Source: Nordella sp. HKS 07
GTDB lineage: Bacteria; Pseudomonadota; Alphaproteobacteria; Rhizobiales; Aestuariivirgaceae
DNA length: 64,000 nucleotides
Assembly (NCBI RefSeq): GCF_011046735.1
Contig: NZ_CP049258.1
Span: 3,366,001-3,430,000, forward strand
Reading direction: 5' to 3'
Shown: positions 56,072 to 63,827 of the stretch, in pieces
How the letters are laid out: each line of letters begins with the position of its first letter
Numbering within the stretch: position 1 is the stretch's first letter
Translations under genes and position numbers: made by a program
Notes under the pieces: generated by a model
Databases searched by the model: none
What the model was told of the DNA's origin: nothing
The model's input: only the letters and a program-made list of their open reading frames with translations

Positions 56072-57391
56072 ATGACTGAAGCATCACACGGGCCTGTCAC
56101 GTCGCGTCGTTCATTTCTCTCCAAGGCGGGAGCCGGTGCCGGCTCGCTGGCTTTGCTCGCCGGCCTCAACCTGCAGGCCGGCGCGCAAGACAATTCACCC
56201 GTCATTGTCGGCGGACCTCTGCCGCTGACCGGCCCCATCGCCGCCGACGGCGTCGAGTTCAAGCGCGGCCTCGAAATGGCGGCGGAAGAGATCAATGCGC
56301 TAGGTGGCGTATTGGGCCGTCCGATCCAGCTCGCCTTCGAGGACACCGAGTCCAAGGGCGACGACGTCATCATCAGCGCCGGCCAGAGACTTGTCGACAA
56401 GCACAATGCCAATGTCCTGATCTCAGGCTACAATCTGGGCTCGCAGACAGCACTTCAGGGCGTGGCCTCGGGCGCCTCGCTCATCTATTTGCATGCCGAC
56501 ACGGCGCGCGCCCATACCGATCTCGTGAGCAAGGAGCCGGACAAATACTGGAGCTGCTTCATGTATTGTCCCTCGGAGCTCTATTATGGTTTCGCTTATC
56601 TCGATTTCGTCAAGCATCTCGAGACCTCGGGCCAGCTCAAGCTGCCGAACCGGAAGCTGGCGCTGATCACCGGTCCAATCACCTATTCGATCAATATCGC
56701 CAAATCGATCGAGGGCAAGGCCGCCGAATATGGCTATGAGCTCTCTCTCTATGAGACCGTGCAGGCGCCGATTTCCGAATGGGGCCCGACCCTCGCCAAG
56801 CTCAGGGAGAATCCGCCGGGGCTCATCGTCGTGACGCATTTCTTCCCGCAGGATCAGGCGCAATTCATGATCCAGTTCCTGACCAATCCGACCGACAGCC
56901 TGGTCTATCTGCAATATGGCGCCTCGCTCGCCGCCTTCCGCGACATCGCCGGCGACGCCTCGGTCGGAGTACTCTATGCGACCAATATCGGTGTGCTCCA
57001 GGATGAGATCGGCAGCAACTTCACCAATGCCTATCTGGCGCGCAACGACCAGAAGGCTTCGCCCAATGGCGGCGGCCAGACCTATTCGGCGTTGCATCTC
57101 TATGCGGTCGCCGCCGCTCTCGCCGGAGGGCCGGGCGTGCCTTACGAGGAAGAGCAGAACCGCAAGATCGCGGCGCGCCTCAAATCGATGATCTTCCGCT
57201 GCCCGATGGGTGTCATCCGCTTCGATCAGACGACCCAGGCGGCATTGTCCTATCCGGTGCAGACCAAGGACCCGTCGCTCGGCATGTCCCACATCTTCAG
57301 CCAGATCAAGAACAAGGCGGAGAACGGGCATATCATCTCGCCGTCGCCCTATGACATTGCCAAATTCGAGAAGCCGGCCTGGATGAAGTGA
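56072..57391 (+). CDS. ABC transporter substrate-binding protein, urea/branched-chain amino acid (LivK/AmiC) type
   Basis: The 439-residue protein has a Tat-like signal (TSRRSFLSKAGAGAGSLALL, cleavage near 38) and the type-I periplasmic fold (VGGPLPLTGPIAADGVEFKRG, AAEEINALGGVLGRPIQL). It resembles the urea/short-chain amide binders more than leucine binders. A GGGAGGAA ribosome site precedes the ATG. It is the first gene of an eight-gene plus-strand operon that ends in nitrile hydratase, so its ligand may be an aldoxime, nitrile, amide or a precursor amino acid. Confidence 0.92.
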   Translation: MTEASHGPVTSRRSFLSKAGAGAGSLALLAGLNLQAGAQDNSPVIVGGPLPLTGPIAADGVEFKRGLEMAAEEINALGGVLGRPIQLAFEDTESKGDDVIISAGQRLVDKHNANVLISGYNLGSQTALQGVASGASLIYLHADTARAHTDLVSKEPDKYWSCFMYCPSELYYGFAYLDFVKHLETSGQLKLPNRKLALITGPITYSINIAKSIEGKAAEYGYELSLYETVQAPISEWGPTLAKLRENPPGLIVVTHFFPQDQAQFMIQFLTNPTDSLVYLQYGASLAAFRDIAGDASVGVLYATNIGVLQDEIGSNFTNAYLARNDQKASPNGGGQTYSALHLYAVAAALAGGPGVPYEEEQNRKIAARLKSMIFRCPMGVIRFDQTTQAALSYPVQTKDPSLGMSHIFSQIKNKAENGHIISPSPYDIAKFEKPAWMK

Positions 57392-57395
57392 CGGC

Positions 57396-58163
57396 ATGTC
57401 TGGTCCGCCGCTTCTCGAATGCCGCAACGTAGCCAAGCATTATGGTGCGCTGGCCGCCGTCGATGGCGTCGATCTCGTGATTGCTCCCGGCGAGACCGTC
57501 GGCATCGGCGGTCCCAATGGCGCCGGCAAGACGACCTTCTTCGACCTGATATCAGGGCTCATCACGGTCAGCTCGGGCCAGGTCCTTTATCGCGGTGAGG
57601 ACATCACCGGCAGGGCGCCCTACCGGCTGTTCCACGACGGCATGGCGCGCACCTTCCAGGTGACCAGCGGCTTCGGCGGCCTTACCGTGCTCCAGAACAT
57701 TCTGGCCGCGGTCATCTATGGCAGCGGGCGGACGAAGCCCGGACTGCTGATCGGGCGCGCCGACAGAGACCGGGCGATGGCCTCGCTCGATGCTTTCGGA
57801 CTGGCGGACCTCGCCGAGAGGCGGGTGTCCGACATCCCTGTGCTCGCACGCAAGAAGTTGATGGTGGCGACGGCGGTTGTGCATGAACCCAAGATATTGC
57901 TCCTCGACGAGCCAGTAGGCGGCCTGCTGCCGAAGGAGGTCGACGAGTTCATCGCGCTGATGGGAGGCTTGCGCGCCCGCGGCATCTCCATCGTCTTCAT
58001 CGAGCATGTCATGCGCTTCCTCACCGCGGTCGCCAATCGAGCGCTCATCATGCATCAGGGCAAGCTCATCTATGACGGTGAGCCGCGCGGTATCGCCAAG
58101 GATGCGTTGGTGCGATCGGTCTATCTAGGCTCGGAAGCGGACGCGATGGAGGCATCGGCATGA
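57396..58163 (+). CDS. ABC transporter ATPase, LivG type
   Basis: The 255-residue protein has Walker A GGPNGAGKTTFFD and Walker B ILLLDEPVGGLLPKEV. The signature region is unusual (SDIPVLARKKLMVATAVV): the normal LSGGQ is replaced by IPVLARKK, so its ATP site may be weak or asymmetric. It starts 4 bp after the binding-protein gene and overlaps the LivF-type gene by 4 bp. It would pair with LivF to drive uptake. Confidence 0.9.
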   Translation: MSGPPLLECRNVAKHYGALAAVDGVDLVIAPGETVGIGGPNGAGKTTFFDLISGLITVSSGQVLYRGEDITGRAPYRLFHDGMARTFQVTSGFGGLTVLQNILAAVIYGSGRTKPGLLIGRADRDRAMASLDAFGLADLAERRVSDIPVLARKKLMVATAVVHEPKILLLDEPVGGLLPKEVDEFIALMGGLRARGISIVFIEHVMRFLTAVANRALIMHQGKLIYDGEPRGIAKDALVRSVYLGSEADAMEASA

Positions 58164-58873
58164 GCCGGCTTCTTGCGGTCAAGGGCCTGACGACCGGCTA
58201 TCGCCAGATCCGCGTCCTGCATGATGTGAGCTTCGAGATCGAGCGCGGCGGCATCACCGCGATCATCGGGCCCAATGGCCATGGCAAGTCGACGTTGCTG
58301 CGCACGATTTCCGGTCTGCTGCCGGCTTGGTCGGGCGCGATCGAGTTCGACGGCGCCACGGTTGCAAATGGTGCGCCTCGCCGCGCGCAAGCGGGCCTCG
58401 TGCTCGTCCCGCAAGGCGACCAGCTCTTTGCCGGCATGACGGTGGAGGAGAATCTGATGATGGGCGGCTATGTGCGCAAGGAGATGGCGGAGGTCCGGCA
58501 CACTCTGGCCGAGGTGTTCGAGCTGTTTCCGCGTCTCCACGAGCGTCGAGCCCAGCACGCCAGCAGCCTGTCGGGCGGTGAACGCCGCATGGTGGGCATC
58601 GGCCGCGGACTGATGGCCAAGGCGAAATTGATCATGATCGACGAGCCTTCGCTGGGCCTGGCGCCTCTCATCATCGAGCAGATCTATGCCGCGCTGTCGG
58701 CTCTCGCCGCGCGCGGCCAGTCGATCCTGGTCGTCGAGGAGAATCCCGGCCGTGTTGCGAAGGTGGCATCATCCTTCCATTTGATGGATGGCGGCCGCTT
58801 CACCTGGAGTGGCTCGGCCGCGGATCTCTTGCGTTCGGGCCACATGATCAAAACCTATCTGGGCGGGAACTGA
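58160..58873 (+). CDS. ABC transporter ATPase, LivF type
   Basis: The 237-residue protein has Walker A GPNGHGKSTLL, signature SLSGGERRMVGIGRG and Walker B LIMIDEPSLGLAP. It is a standard LivF-type subunit, with a proper signature motif in contrast to its LivG partner. The LivH-type gene follows after 1 bp. Confidence 0.93.
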   Translation: MSRLLAVKGLTTGYRQIRVLHDVSFEIERGGITAIIGPNGHGKSTLLRTISGLLPAWSGAIEFDGATVANGAPRRAQAGLVLVPQGDQLFAGMTVEENLMMGGYVRKEMAEVRHTLAEVFELFPRLHERRAQHASSLSGGERRMVGIGRGLMAKAKLIMIDEPSLGLAPLIIEQIYAALSALAARGQSILVVEENPGRVAKVASSFHLMDGGRFTWSGSAADLLRSGHMIKTYLGGN

Positions 58874-58874
58874 C

Positions 58875-59753
58875 ATGCAGGCCGTACTGCAGATCCTCAT
58901 CACCGGCCTGACGCTCGGCGCCATGTATGCGCTCGCCTCCGTCGGTCTCGCTTTGACCTACGGCACCATGCGCATGTTCAACATGGCGCATGGAATCTTC
59001 ATGGCGATCGGGGCCTATGCCACCTATTCGGCCGCCTCCGTCTGGGGATGGCCGCTGCCGCTGGCTTTTCTTGCAGGTCTCGCCGCAGGCGGCCTCATTG
59101 GCGCCATCGTGCATCTCCTCGTCGTGCGCTTCATGCTCGAAACCGAAGGCTTCGAGGTCAATATCATCGTGGCCACGGCCGGCGTGAGCATCCTGCTGCA
59201 GGATCTCCTGCTCAAATATTACGGCGCCTATCCGTTTCGCCAGCCGGCCCAGATCGAGGGCGTATTCCGCATCGGCGAGGTCGCCGTTACCTATCAATCG
59301 GTCGCCATCCTGGTCACCGCCGCCGCCTTGATCAGCGGCATCGCCTGGCTTCTTACCCATACCCGCTTCGGGCTCGCCATCCGCGCCACCGCGATGAACC
59401 GTGAGGCGGCGCTGCTCATGGGCGTCGAGGCGGGCCGCACCTATCTTCAGGTCCTCATCATCGCCGGTGTGCTGGCGGCAGCGGCCGGCGTCCTCATCTC
59501 GTCGCTGGCGACCCTTTCGCCTGATATGGGCGCCAATCCGCTGCTGCGCGCCTTCGTCATCTGCGTCGTGGCGGGCCTCGGCAGCGTGACCGGCGCCGGC
59601 ATCGCGGCGCTGGCGCTCGGCCTCTTCGAGGCGGCGATCCAGTATTATCTCGGCGTCCGCTACGGCTTTCCTGTCATGCTGCTCCTCGTCATCATCGTCC
59701 TCATCTGGAAGCCGGCCGGCCTGTTCGGGCAGCAGGAGGTCGTGCGCTCATGA
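58875..59753 (+). CDS. ABC transporter permease, LivH type
   Basis: The 292-residue inner-membrane protein has about eight helices and the LivH pattern LTLGAMYALASVGLALTYG and TAMNREAALLMGVEAGRTY. It overlaps the next gene by 4 bp. It forms one half of the channel; the other half is the permease part of the fusion protein downstream. Confidence 0.93.
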   Translation: MQAVLQILITGLTLGAMYALASVGLALTYGTMRMFNMAHGIFMAIGAYATYSAASVWGWPLPLAFLAGLAAGGLIGAIVHLLVVRFMLETEGFEVNIIVATAGVSILLQDLLLKYYGAYPFRQPAQIEGVFRIGEVAVTYQSVAILVTAAALISGIAWLLTHTRFGLAIRATAMNREAALLMGVEAGRTYLQVLIIAGVLAAAAGVLISSLATLSPDMGANPLLRAFVICVVAGLGSVTGAGIAALALGLFEAAIQYYLGVRYGFPVMLLLVIIVLIWKPAGLFGQQEVVRS

Positions 59754-61810
59754 TCTCTTCCCGTGAAATGGTCCGCCATCTTATGGGCGCCGTGCTTCTT
59801 CTTGCCGCCCTGTCGGTGTTGCCCTTCGTCATCACTGAGCGTTATGCGCTGGGCGAGATCATCACCTTCCTCATCTGGGCGGCCGTCGCAGTGCAATGGA
59901 ACGTGCTCACCGGCCATGCCGGCGTCTTCTCGCTGGGCCAGATGCTGTTCTTCGCGATCGGTTCCTATGCCGTCGCCATGCTCGCGGTCTATTTCGGCCT
60001 GTCGCCTTGGGCGTCGATGCCGGTGGCGGGCCTCGCGGCGGCGGTCGCGGCACTGCTCATCGGGCTCGCTTGCCTGCGCCTTGCAGCCGCTTATGTGGCG
60101 CTCTTGACCTTCGCCATCGCCTATATGATCTACACGCTGATCATCACCGATTCCGCCTGCTACATCACCACCGGCGGCACCTGCACGCCCTTCTTCGGCG
60201 GCACCAACGGCTTCTCCCAGTTCGCCGATCTGGGATTCCGCAAGCTGCTCAAGGGCAGCTGGATCATCGGTAACTACTACTCAGTGCTCGCCATCTTTGC
60301 GCTTTCCTTCATCGCCTCGATTGTTGTGATCCATGGAAGGCTCGGCCTCGCTTTCCGCGCCACCAGCGACAGCGCCACCTATGCCGCAGCGCGCGGCATC
60401 AACCGGACGAAATTCCAGATCATCGCCTTCGTCGTCACTGCCTTCTTCACCGGGCTCGCGGGCGCTGGCTATGCGGCGCATTTCCGCTTCGCCGGTCCCA
60501 GCCTGTTCGAGCTCTCGACGCTGATGTTCGTCCTGTCGATGGTGATCGTCGGCGGCCTCAAATCCACCTGGGGACCGATCTTCGGAGCCGCGTTGATGAT
60601 GATCCTGGTGGAAGTCGGCAAGAGCATGGGCGATGTGCGTAATACCTTGATCGGGCTTGTGCTGGTGATCTTCGTGCTGCTCCTGCCCAAGGGTCTGGCC
60701 GGCGCCTGGGCCATGCTTCTTGACAGATTCCGCCGACCGAAGTCAGCTGAACCGTCCAACCGGCTCGAACCGGCCATCCCGTCGCATCTCCAGGTACCGC
60801 GCACGCGCCCGCTCGCGGCACCCGAAGGATTCGTGCCGCCGACGCCGTCCTATTCCGCCCGCTTCAGCCGCGCTGTGACCGCACTGCCGATGGCCTTCTT
60901 CGGCGTGCAATTCAGCAAGGCCTCCCCTGAGAGCGCCCAGGCGATCGCGTTGCAACAGAAGGGATTTGAAGGGGCCTTCGGTCCGGCCTTCTGGGACCGC
61001 GCCGAATATGTCGACGAATGCGGCTGCACCAACAGCGTTATCGTCGGTTATTGGGACAGCCGCGAAACCTATGACCGCTGGCGCGCGAACCTGGCTCCGG
61101 ACTGGTGGCGCGCCGGCGCCAGCCTCGATGGCGAGCTCGGCTTCTTCCGCGAATGCTACACGCCCTCCATTTCAGACACCGAGACGACCTTCTCCCATCC
61201 TGATCCGGAAGGCTATGCGAAGATCGCGCACGTCATGAGCGGGATGACCGACACGCATGGCTATTGGGGAAGTGCGCGCGACCGGATTCCGCGCGCCCAG
61301 ACCGACGATCTGACGGCACGGGGCGAGCCGGGCGCCGAGCTCGCCGGCGGCAACGACACCTTGCGGCGCCATGTCGTCGTCACGCCGCACGACAATCTGT
61401 GCCTGTTGCGCTCAGGCCAGGACTGGAGCGATACGAGTGCCGAAGAGCGAAGCTTCTATCTCGAGCAGGTCAAGCCGAAGCTCGACGAGGGCATGGCCTT
61501 CATCCGCGACCAGGGCGAGAAGGTCGGCTGCTATTTTAACCGCTATATGACGCTCCTCAACCTCGAGGGAGCGGGCGGCAAGACCTACAGTCTCAGCGCC
61601 TGGCGTAGCCTGACTGAGCTCGAGGCCTGGGTGAAGACCGACAGTCATCTGGCAATCTTCGCGGCGGGCACGCGGCAATACCGTACCTTCAAAGACGCTG
61701 AACTGCGCCTCTATCACGAGATGAGTGTGATCCGCGCCGCCGACCAGTCCTTCGAATATTTCAACTGCCATGACCGCACCGGCATGTTGAATGCCCTGAA
61801 CAGGGCGTAG
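59750..61810 (+). CDS. LivM-type ABC permease fused to a complete aldoxime dehydratase
   Basis: The 686-residue protein is one open frame. Residues 1-325 are a LivM-type permease (VLTGHAGVFSLGQMLFFAIG, FRATSDSATYAAARGINRTK, multiple helices). Residues about 340-686 match heme-dependent aldoxime dehydratases end to end, from SHLQVPRTRPL at the start to FNCHDRTGML near the end. Expected key residues are kept: His633 (SHLAIF, likely proximal heme ligand), His656 (LRLYHEMSV, likely catalytic), Ser555 (LLRSGQDWSD) and Arg in ARDRIPRAQTD. The enzyme converts R-CH=N-OH to R-CN. There is no Met between 322 and 381; a GTG at 60833 behind GAAGGA could allow a separate shorter product. Confidence 0.9.
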   Translation: MISSREMVRHLMGAVLLLAALSVLPFVITERYALGEIITFLIWAAVAVQWNVLTGHAGVFSLGQMLFFAIGSYAVAMLAVYFGLSPWASMPVAGLAAAVAALLIGLACLRLAAAYVALLTFAIAYMIYTLIITDSACYITTGGTCTPFFGGTNGFSQFADLGFRKLLKGSWIIGNYYSVLAIFALSFIASIVVIHGRLGLAFRATSDSATYAAARGINRTKFQIIAFVVTAFFTGLAGAGYAAHFRFAGPSLFELSTLMFVLSMVIVGGLKSTWGPIFGAALMMILVEVGKSMGDVRNTLIGLVLVIFVLLLPKGLAGAWAMLLDRFRRPKSAEPSNRLEPAIPSHLQVPRTRPLAAPEGFVPPTPSYSARFSRAVTALPMAFFGVQFSKASPESAQAIALQQKGFEGAFGPAFWDRAEYVDECGCTNSVIVGYWDSRETYDRWRANLAPDWWRAGASLDGELGFFRECYTPSISDTETTFSHPDPEGYAKIAHVMSGMTDTHGYWGSARDRIPRAQTDDLTARGEPGAELAGGNDTLRRHVVVTPHDNLCLLRSGQDWSDTSAEERSFYLEQVKPKLDEGMAFIRDQGEKVGCYFNRYMTLLNLEGAGGKTYSLSAWRSLTELEAWVKTDSHLAIFAAGTRQYRTFKDAELRLYHEMSVIRAADQSFEYFNCHDRTGMLNALNRA

Positions 61811-61815
61811 GTCCT

Positions 61816-63201
61816 ATGCCGCATTTCCTGACCCTTGTCTCCGCGGCCGGGGCCCTGCGCGCGAAGAACGTTTCGGCGCGGGAGCTACTCGGTGAGATTC
61901 TCGACCGGATCGACAGCGACGACCGTTTCATTCGTGCCTATAGTGATCTGACCCGCGAAACCGCCGAGCGAGAGGCAGCGGAATCCGATCTCCGCCATGC
62001 GCGCAACGAAGCCCGGGGGCCGCTCGACGGCATTCCCGTCGCCGTGAAGGATCTGATCGACACGACGCCGGCCAGATGCCGCGCCGGCCTCCCGCATCTC
62101 GTTCACTACCGGCCCCAGCGCGATGCCGATGCCGTGACGCTGTTGCGCCAAGCGGGCGCGGTGGTCGTCGGCGTCCTCGAGACCGACGCTGGCGCCTTCG
62201 GTACGCGCACGCCCCAAGTGATCAACCCGATCGCGCCCGGCCTTATTGCCGGCGGATCGAGCGGCGGCGCGGGGGCGGCGGTCTGCGCCGGGCTCGCTTA
62301 TGGTGCGATCGGCACTGATACCGGCGGCAGCATCCGCATTCCGGCCGCGTGTTGCTCGGTGTTGGGATTCAAGCCGACATGGGGAAGGGTGAGCGCGCAT
62401 GGGGTCCGCCCGCTGGCCCAATCCTGCGACCATGTCGGGCCTCTGGCACGCACTGTCGCGGATCTGCAGGCGATTCAGGCCGTGCTCGATCCGCTGCCCA
62501 GGGAGGTGTTTGAGACGCCGACGCGTCTGCGGATCGGCGTTTCACCCGATTATTTCGGCGACGCCGATCCGCTCGTGGCAGAGGCCATGGCTCTTGTCGT
62601 GTCTGCGCTCACCAGAGCGCGTCACTCGGTCCGCGAGGTGCGGATGCCGCTTCCGGACGCCATCATGGGTTCGCATATGGTCACCGTCACGCGGGAAGCG
62701 GCCAAGTATCACACGGAGCAGTTTCCCGGCCTGTGGCAGGCGCATCCAGACATTGCCCGCGATGCGATAGAGTTTGGCCGCACTGTGAGCGATGCAGACT
62801 ATGCCGTGGCACAGGCGCGGCGCCGGCAGGTTGCAGATGCCGTCGAAGGGCTGTTTTCGGGTCTCGATATACTGATCCTGCCGACCCTGCCGGTCGATGC
62901 CCCGGATCGCGATGTCGAAACCGTCCGCCTGGATGGATGTGAGATATCTGTCCTCGAGGCCACGATCCGCTATACGGCGATGTTCAACCATACCGGCCAT
63001 CCGGTGGTGTCGATCCCGGCATCCCGACTGCCGGATGGCCGCGCGCTGAGTGTCCAGATCGTCGGCGCGCGCCACAACGATCAGAGGTTGCTCGCTATTG
63101 CGCGGCAGTTGGAGGATATATTGGCGGTGACCGTCGATTATGGGTCGCTGGCAAGAGCGGCGCAGATGAATGTCCGGCGCCTGCGCCGCCGTTATACTTG
63201 A
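61816..63201 (+). CDS. Amidase signature family hydrolase
   Basis: The 461-residue protein has K78 (GIPVAVKDL), cis-Ser148 ([11 protein letters not shown]) and nucleophile Ser172 ([11 protein letters not shown]). It starts 5 bp after the fusion gene and is followed by nitrile hydratase. It should convert the amide made by nitrile hydratase into the acid plus ammonia, the last step of the aldoxime-nitrile route. This pairing of amidase and nitrile hydratase genes is well known. Confidence 0.92.
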
Positions 63202-63212
63202 GGAGGCTACGC

Positions 63213-63827
63213 ATGCCGCACGATCACGATGACGCCGATCATGATCACGACCATGATCCCCTGGAGCAGGGCGCGAGCCTCAGAGTCAGGGCGCTCGAGG
63301 AATTGATGATCGCCAAGGGGCTGGTCGATCCGGCAGCTCTCGATCGTATAGTCGAATACTATGAGCGCGAGACAGGCCCGCGCAACGGCGCCAAGGTCGT
63401 CGCGCGGGCCTGGCTCGAGCCGGATTTCCACGACTGGCTGCTCCGTGACGGCACCGCCGCCATCCATTCCATGGGCTTCACGGGCTATCAGGGCGAGCAT
63501 ATGCGCGTGGTGGAGAACTCAGCGCGCGTGCACAATGTCATCGTCTGCACTCTGTGCTCCTGCTATCCCTGGCCGGTGCTTGGCCTGCCGCCCGCCTGGT
63601 ACAAGGGCGCCGCCTATCGCTCGCGCGTCGTGCGCGAGCCGCGCGCCGTCCTGAAAGAGTTTGGTCTCGAGTTCGGCACGGATGTCGAGATCAAGGTCTG
63701 GGATTCGACCGCCGAGATTCGCTACATGGTGCTCCCTCAGCGCCCGGCCAATACGGAAACATTCACCTCCGATCAGCTCGCTACCCTCGTCACCCGCGAC
63801 GGCATGATCGGAACCGCACTTCTGTAG
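63213..63827 (+). CDS. nthA: Nitrile hydratase alpha subunit
   Basis: The 204-residue protein has the metal-binding claw [20 protein letters not shown] with Cys112, Cys115 and Cys117. Thr in the CTLCSC motif points to the cobalt type; iron types usually have CSLCSC. The N-terminus is unusually His/Asp-rich ([13 protein letters not shown]), which might help metal loading. I chose the ATG at 63213 behind AGGAGG; a TTG at 63198 lacks this. It converts nitriles to amides with the beta subunit that follows. Confidence 0.95.

Follow-up and report, generated by a model that had tools for sequence, protein, structure and literature searches.

Introduction

Transporters that are joined to an enzyme acting on the transported compound have a precedent in the LplT-Aas system. 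Tandem-fused LplT-Aas homologs occur in some bacteria, and in E. coli the separate proteins LplT and Aas form a complex for which substrate tunnelling has been proposed, as stated in the consulted portion of PMC11416262. The genes of the aldoxime-nitrile pathway are known to be physically clustered, with oxd found in operons with nitrilase or nitrile hydratase genes (PMC8955678, in the portion consulted). The main text of that review contains neither "transporter" nor "permease", and a review on the enzyme itself (PMC11568032) contains neither "transporter" nor "fusion". A fusion between a permease and an aldoxime dehydratase was not found described in the titles and first parts of the abstracts of the open-access literature searched, a body of work to which most subscription journals do not belong.

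Here we analyze a stretch of 64,000 nucleotides from Nordella sp. HKS 07 (contig NZ_CP049258.1, positions 3,366,001 to 3,430,000 of the forward strand), hereafter the window, in which a gene of an importer operon continues in frame into an aldoxime dehydratase.

An importer permease and an aldoxime dehydratase share one frame

An earlier, sequence-only reading of this DNA had described a single uninterrupted frame of 686 codons with a LivM-type permease at its front and a full-length aldoxime dehydratase at its back, and our analysis bears out all three points. The frame runs on the plus strand from an ATG to a TAG (59750..61810) without interruption and encodes a protein of 686 aa. The permease part (residues ~1-330; 59750..60739) contains a BPD_transp_2 domain at residues 37-308, with 102.5 bits against the Pfam cut-off of 26.8, and shares 68-70% identity with the stand-alone Epibacterium permeases (L007/L009). 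A variable linker follows (residues 331-338; 60740..60763), and then the dehydratase part (residues 339-686; 60764..61807), in which residues 382-679 match the Dehydratase_hem profile (PF13816) from position 1 to 310 of 310, with 268.1 bits against the Pfam cut-off of 25. The solved aldoxime dehydratases 3a15 and 3w08 align from residues 337 and 339, respectively, and both to residue 681, so the enzyme part is complete at its N-terminus; another solved enzyme, 7f2y, aligns from residue 358 on only. Identity to the stand-alone Dactylosporangium enzyme (L008) is 62-63%. The gene is a real in-frame fusion of two complete domains. Its product stays below the cut-offs of the OxdA equivalog model NF050090 (314.1 of 600 bits), the LivM model PRK11301 (110.2 of 366 bits) and the UrtC model TIGR03408 (89.1 of 296.2 bits).

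A long frame alone is no evidence of fusion, since three unfused dehydratase places also lie in open frames of 556, 551 and 780 aa (L035, L039 and L060, respectively) and there the enzyme starts at its own Met. A chance long frame could be rejected for the window gene, as the same two-domain frame is present in two other assemblies, those of Aestuariivirga sp. YIM B02566 (L005) and Rhizobiales bacterium Y(2018) (L006).

The residues expected of a working enzyme, which the sequence-only reading had listed as a heme ligand and catalytic His, Ser and Arg, are in place. In the alignment to 3w08, His633 (61646..61648) corresponds to OxdA His299, which we take to be the heme ligand, and would be its counterpart here. 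Ser555 (61412..61414) and His656 (61715..61717) correspond to OxdA Ser219 and His320 in the same alignment, and Arg510 (61277..61279) to OxdA Arg178. All four positions are retained in the three fusions. Active-site roles have been assigned to OxdA Arg178, Ser219 and His320, the last being the acid-base catalyst (PMC5391958, in the portion consulted).

The fusion gene lies in an operon with importer and nitrile genes

All operon genes in the window lie on the plus strand. The fusion gene is preceded by genes encoding a periplasmic substrate-binding protein (Peripla_BP_6; 56072..57391), two ABC ATPases (both ABC_tran; 57396..58163 and 58160..58873) and a LivH-type permease (BPD_transp_2; 58875..59753), the last overlapping the start of the fusion gene by 4 bases. 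Given its BPD_transp_2 match over the cut-off and an operon that also encodes LivH, both ATPases and the binding protein, the front half of the fusion has what is expected of an ABC importer permease of the LivM/UrtC group. An amidase gene (61816..63201) and the gene of the nitrile hydratase alpha subunit (63213..63827, with the ATG at 63213 taken as its start) follow the fusion. Past the window end lie genes for the nitrile hydratase beta subunit and accessory proteins, a LysR-like gene in the opposite orientation, so called for its likeness to an annotated Aminobacter gene, and a gene for an M20 amidohydrolase. Genes for an aldoxime dehydratase, a nitrile hydratase and an amidase are thus found in one operon, as in aldoxime-nitrile pathway operons, and judged by its gene content this operon is predicted to encode a pathway from aldoxime through nitrile and amide to acid, together with an importer dedicated to it.

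The nitrile hydratase alpha subunit has an N-terminus rich in His and Asp and a CTLCSC metal motif, presumably of the cobalt type. The LysR-like regulator is located 3' of the operon in the window genome (L012 7008-8294); it is located 5' of it in Aminobacter (L032 4137-5060, annotated) and in Epibacterium (L007 1078-2016, likeness judged by eye).

The fusion recurs in related genomes

The fusion was present in three of the five genomes of the genus that were examined, and the remaining two, one of them 87% complete, had no Dehydratase_hem match. The proteins of L005 and L006 are 86-87% identical to the window protein over residues 1-686, with an in-frame difference in linker length of two codons (6 bases), the window linker being the longer one. 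The gene order around the fusion is that of the window operon in both, and in each of the three carriers the fusion is the sole PF13816 match. The sequence-only reading had held that the fusion would fall if all close relatives had two separate genes at this point; instead, the two-domain architecture is found with the same operon in two more species of the genus, and it is in Aminobacter that two genes are seen.

Matches to the dehydratase family were found in 4 of the 60 relatives (3 over the cut-off) and in 8 of 385 genomes of the class (5 over), 24 of 397 of the order (22 over), 17 of 398 of the phylum (13 over) and 19 of 150 of the Dactylosporangium family (3 over), where the sets overlap, contain the window genome or the source of the query, and include short fragments among the matches. 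The 41 loci with a dehydratase match of more than 200 aa come down to 35 distinct places after removal of 6 repeats of the three fusions; loci with a short or weak PF13816 match (among them L004, L016-L019, L052-L054, L062, L063 and L087-L105) were not counted as dehydratases. None of the 32 distinct places other than the three fusions showed the fusion, as judged from gene lists or annotation for six (L008, L010, L013-L015 and L032), from inspection of the long frame for three (L035, L039 and L060), and for 23 from open frames of 346-403 aa, which leave no space for a permease. A LivM gene adjoins the enzyme in only one of the 32, that of Aminobacter, most loci spanning just 1.5 kb per side.

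The dehydratase part was matched by 34 of 72,556 plasmid records, and only one plasmid record, again that of Aminobacter, covered at least 80% of the fusion query, as two genes. Eleven phage records matched, all with less than 60% identity and, among the five matches listed, in the permease part only.

Unfused relatives and a probable route to the fusion

The unfused state is represented by plasmid pANY103d of Aminobacter sp. SS-2016 (L032), which carries the same operon, in which permease and dehydratase are encoded by two genes that overlap by 4 bases (GTGA). The sequence-only reading had suggested that loss of a stop codon in a coupled gene pair created the fusion. The overlapping pair agrees with a coupled gene pair as the starting point, but the two Aminobacter genes are in different frames, with an offset of 2, so loss of the stop would not by itself fuse such a pair and a frame change is needed; stop loss alone is therefore ruled out for an Aminobacter-like pair. 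Beyond the Glu-Pro near the departure point the Aminobacter permease continues for nine residues, and some fifteen residues precede the shared AIP..HL motif in the Aminobacter dehydratase, compared with six residues from Glu-Pro to AIP in the window fusion. A small deletion across the junction would account for both the missing residues and the frame.

In the LivM tree, the six nitrile-operon permeases form one group (100/100) made up of the fusions (97/97) and their unfused sister group (97/96). We take the fusion to be derived, since neither the outgroup permeases nor the remaining dehydratases are fused; this tree was rooted at its midpoint only. In the Oxd tree, the fusions (98/97) lie inside a clade (100/100) with the enzymes of Dactylosporangium (L008) and Aminobacter (L032), although the program flags long branches, that of Aminobacter included, as unsure. 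This enzyme clade is thus found in an actinobacterium (L008) as well. The plasmid with the unfused Aminobacter operon (L032 4137-14249) is typed as conjugative (MOBQ) and the operon lies ~2.6 kb from traR, suggesting horizontal spread. The operon was also present in two Epibacterium ulvae genomes, with no dehydratase-family match in either.

Is one joint protein made?

Comparison of the window with L005 gave a dN of 0.046 and a dS of 0.61 for the LivM half and a dN of 0.123 and a dS of 0.85 for the Oxd half; purifying selection acts on both halves. It is strong in the N-terminal segment of the dehydratase (residues 339-361; 60764..60832), where synonymous and nonsynonymous changes stand at 13:1 between the window and L005, 10:1 between the window and L006 and 8:2 in the third pair. 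Equally low values were reached in 0, 0 and 9 of 20,000 neutral draws, respectively, in a rough test that assumes uniform mutation. No ATG, GTG or TTG between codons 310 and 361 is common to all three fusions. The first shared start on the enzyme side is GTG 362, ATG 381 is shared too, and the shared GTG codons 304, 306 and 309 are within the last hydrophobic stretch of LivM. Selection on a segment that precedes the first start shared on the enzyme side speaks for production of the joint protein: the segment would be translated only within the fusion, unless each species uses a private start or one of GTG 304, 306 and 309 is used. The open linker is weak evidence alone, as it is free of stops in 54-65% of neutral draws, and a selection bias at codons 319-338 is seen in just one of the three pairs (0.11, 0.007 and 0.27).

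The two-gene state of the Aminobacter operon could invite the suspicion that two normal neighboring genes were joined in the window through an error of sequencing or assembly. We consider this next to impossible, since the same fusion in three separate assemblies is not a sequencing slip, their linkers are different and show a 6-base in-frame length difference, and the genome with the window was assembled into a single contig of 7.18 Mb. Very improbable, too, is that the gene is a decaying, inactive relic, given a dN/dS of ~0.11-0.15 for the enzyme half between the window and the other two carriers and the four active-site positions kept in all three fusions. Two products, the fusion and a shorter free enzyme started at the in-frame GTG of codon 362 (60833..60835), seem unlikely to us. 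This possible weak internal start is common to all three fusions with a GAAGG just 5' of it, and the late start of the 7f2y alignment would suit an enzyme of that length. Its upstream pairing of -6.0 kcal/mol falls between the 5% (-7.2) and 25% (-4.8) marks of 300 random places, compared with -9.8 kcal/mol for the fusion's own start. On the other hand, 3-4 bases make a short spacing, the stand-alone L008 enzyme retains the Glu-Gly-Phe codons too, GTG accounts for 57 of all 127 Val codons of the three genes, which makes a shared one nothing unusual, and the free enzyme would lack the selected segment 339-361.

A more serious contender, which we regard as a real possibility though not the favored one, is that the joint protein is made but that the joining is neutral, bringing nothing beyond 1:1 expression, with the enzyme acting like a soluble one. 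The stretch 319-345 is the least conserved (68-72% amino acid identity) and varies in length, as would be expected if only the frame matters, and the Aminobacter operon does with two separate genes. Yet the fusion is kept in all three carriers, whose synonymous sites are 0.34-0.73 apart. Neutral joining overlaps with the tethered enzyme that we prefer, as the latter claims no benefit.

A putative tethered enzyme at the importer

We think it quite probable that the gene encodes one membrane protein, in which a LivM-type importer subunit carries a tethered aldoxime dehydratase in the cytoplasm, and that it goes back to a single event in an overlapping livM-oxd gene pair, probably the small deletion across the junction. 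The front half would be the LivM-type subunit of an ABC importer, and the complete heme enzyme would sit on its cytoplasmic tail behind a connecting stretch of ~20 residues (319-338). The importer, made up of binding protein, two ATPases, LivH and LivM, would take up a nitrogen compound; the tethered enzyme would convert aldoxime to nitrile next to the importer, and the nitrile hydratase and amidase of the operon would take the nitrile to the amide and then to acid and ammonia.

The sequence-only reading had placed the LivM C-terminus in the cytoplasm, and this gained support from a 618-aa LivM-ATPase fusion encoded elsewhere in the Nordella genome (L086 1146-3002), in which the ATPase is at the LivM C-terminus. 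The 60 residues past the last hydrophobic stretch of our fusion contain 9 Lys/Arg against 4 Asp/Glu, and the hydropathy profile has overlapping segments that give no clean helix count. The L086 fusion and the Lys/Arg excess make the cytoplasmic face of the importer the likely site of the tether. Aldoxime dehydratases are known as soluble dimers, so the tethered form would have to dimerize across or within importers.

The Epibacterium operon encodes the importer with nitrile hydratase and amidase but without a dehydratase, so a nitrile or an amide may be what is imported. Distant relatives of the importer adjoin histone-deacetylase-like amidohydrolases (L077 12155-13423, L078 2151-3251 and, in Roseovarius, L064 2241-3272), a hint that acylated amines may be substrates in this subfamily, and one (L079) adjoins an amidase. 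The first annotated gene to follow LivM on the Roseovarius plasmid encodes an IS3 transposase (L064 8246-9474), the place of the amidase or Oxd in nitrile operons. Judged by gene neighborhoods, which speak against a simple hand-over, the importer itself may be specific for an amide, a nitrile or an acylated amine, and the uptake of aldoxime may be a special case.

Our confidence in a tethered enzyme does not extend to a hand-over of substrate. That the permease brings its own first catabolic enzyme, so that imported aldoxime is dehydrated at the channel exit and the reactive aldoxime, perhaps also nitrile, is hardly free in the cytoplasm, is a tentative and rather doubtful extension.

A permease and a complete pathway enzyme in one chain are, at the level of the genome, strong evidence for cooperation between the importer and the aldoxime-nitrile pathway. 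The fusion gives a lead on the importer substrate, which may be an aldoxime, a nitrile or a related amide. It also lends itself to tests of whether uptake and first reaction are coupled, and the Aminobacter operon with its two separate genes can serve as the comparison.

Comparison with known systems

The enzyme part of the fusion resembles the OxdA/OxdRE-type dehydratases (3w08, 3a15; PF13816) in its full-length alignment and its Arg, Ser and His positions, but those entries are stand-alone, whereas here a membrane permease leads directly into the N-terminus of the enzyme. The front half has the same domain and operon partners as LivM/UrtC-type permeases. LivM-LivG permease-ATPase fusions also have a C-terminal cytoplasmic domain; the partner there is an ATPase and here a metabolic heme enzyme. 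Compared with the aldoxime-nitrile pathway operons as presented in the consulted portion of PMC8955678, the importer is here inside the operon and fused to Oxd. The precedent in kind, going by the consulted portion of PMC11416262, is LplT-Aas, a transporter with an enzyme acting on the transported compound. As in that system, one frame encodes both a transporter and an enzyme from its operon, and the arrangement is kept in several species; LplT, however, flips lipids, whereas the present case joins an ABC importer to a heme enzyme. Fusion of a transporter to an enzyme is thus known as a kind, and as far as our searches reach the pairing of BPD_transp_2 with Dehydratase_hem is new.
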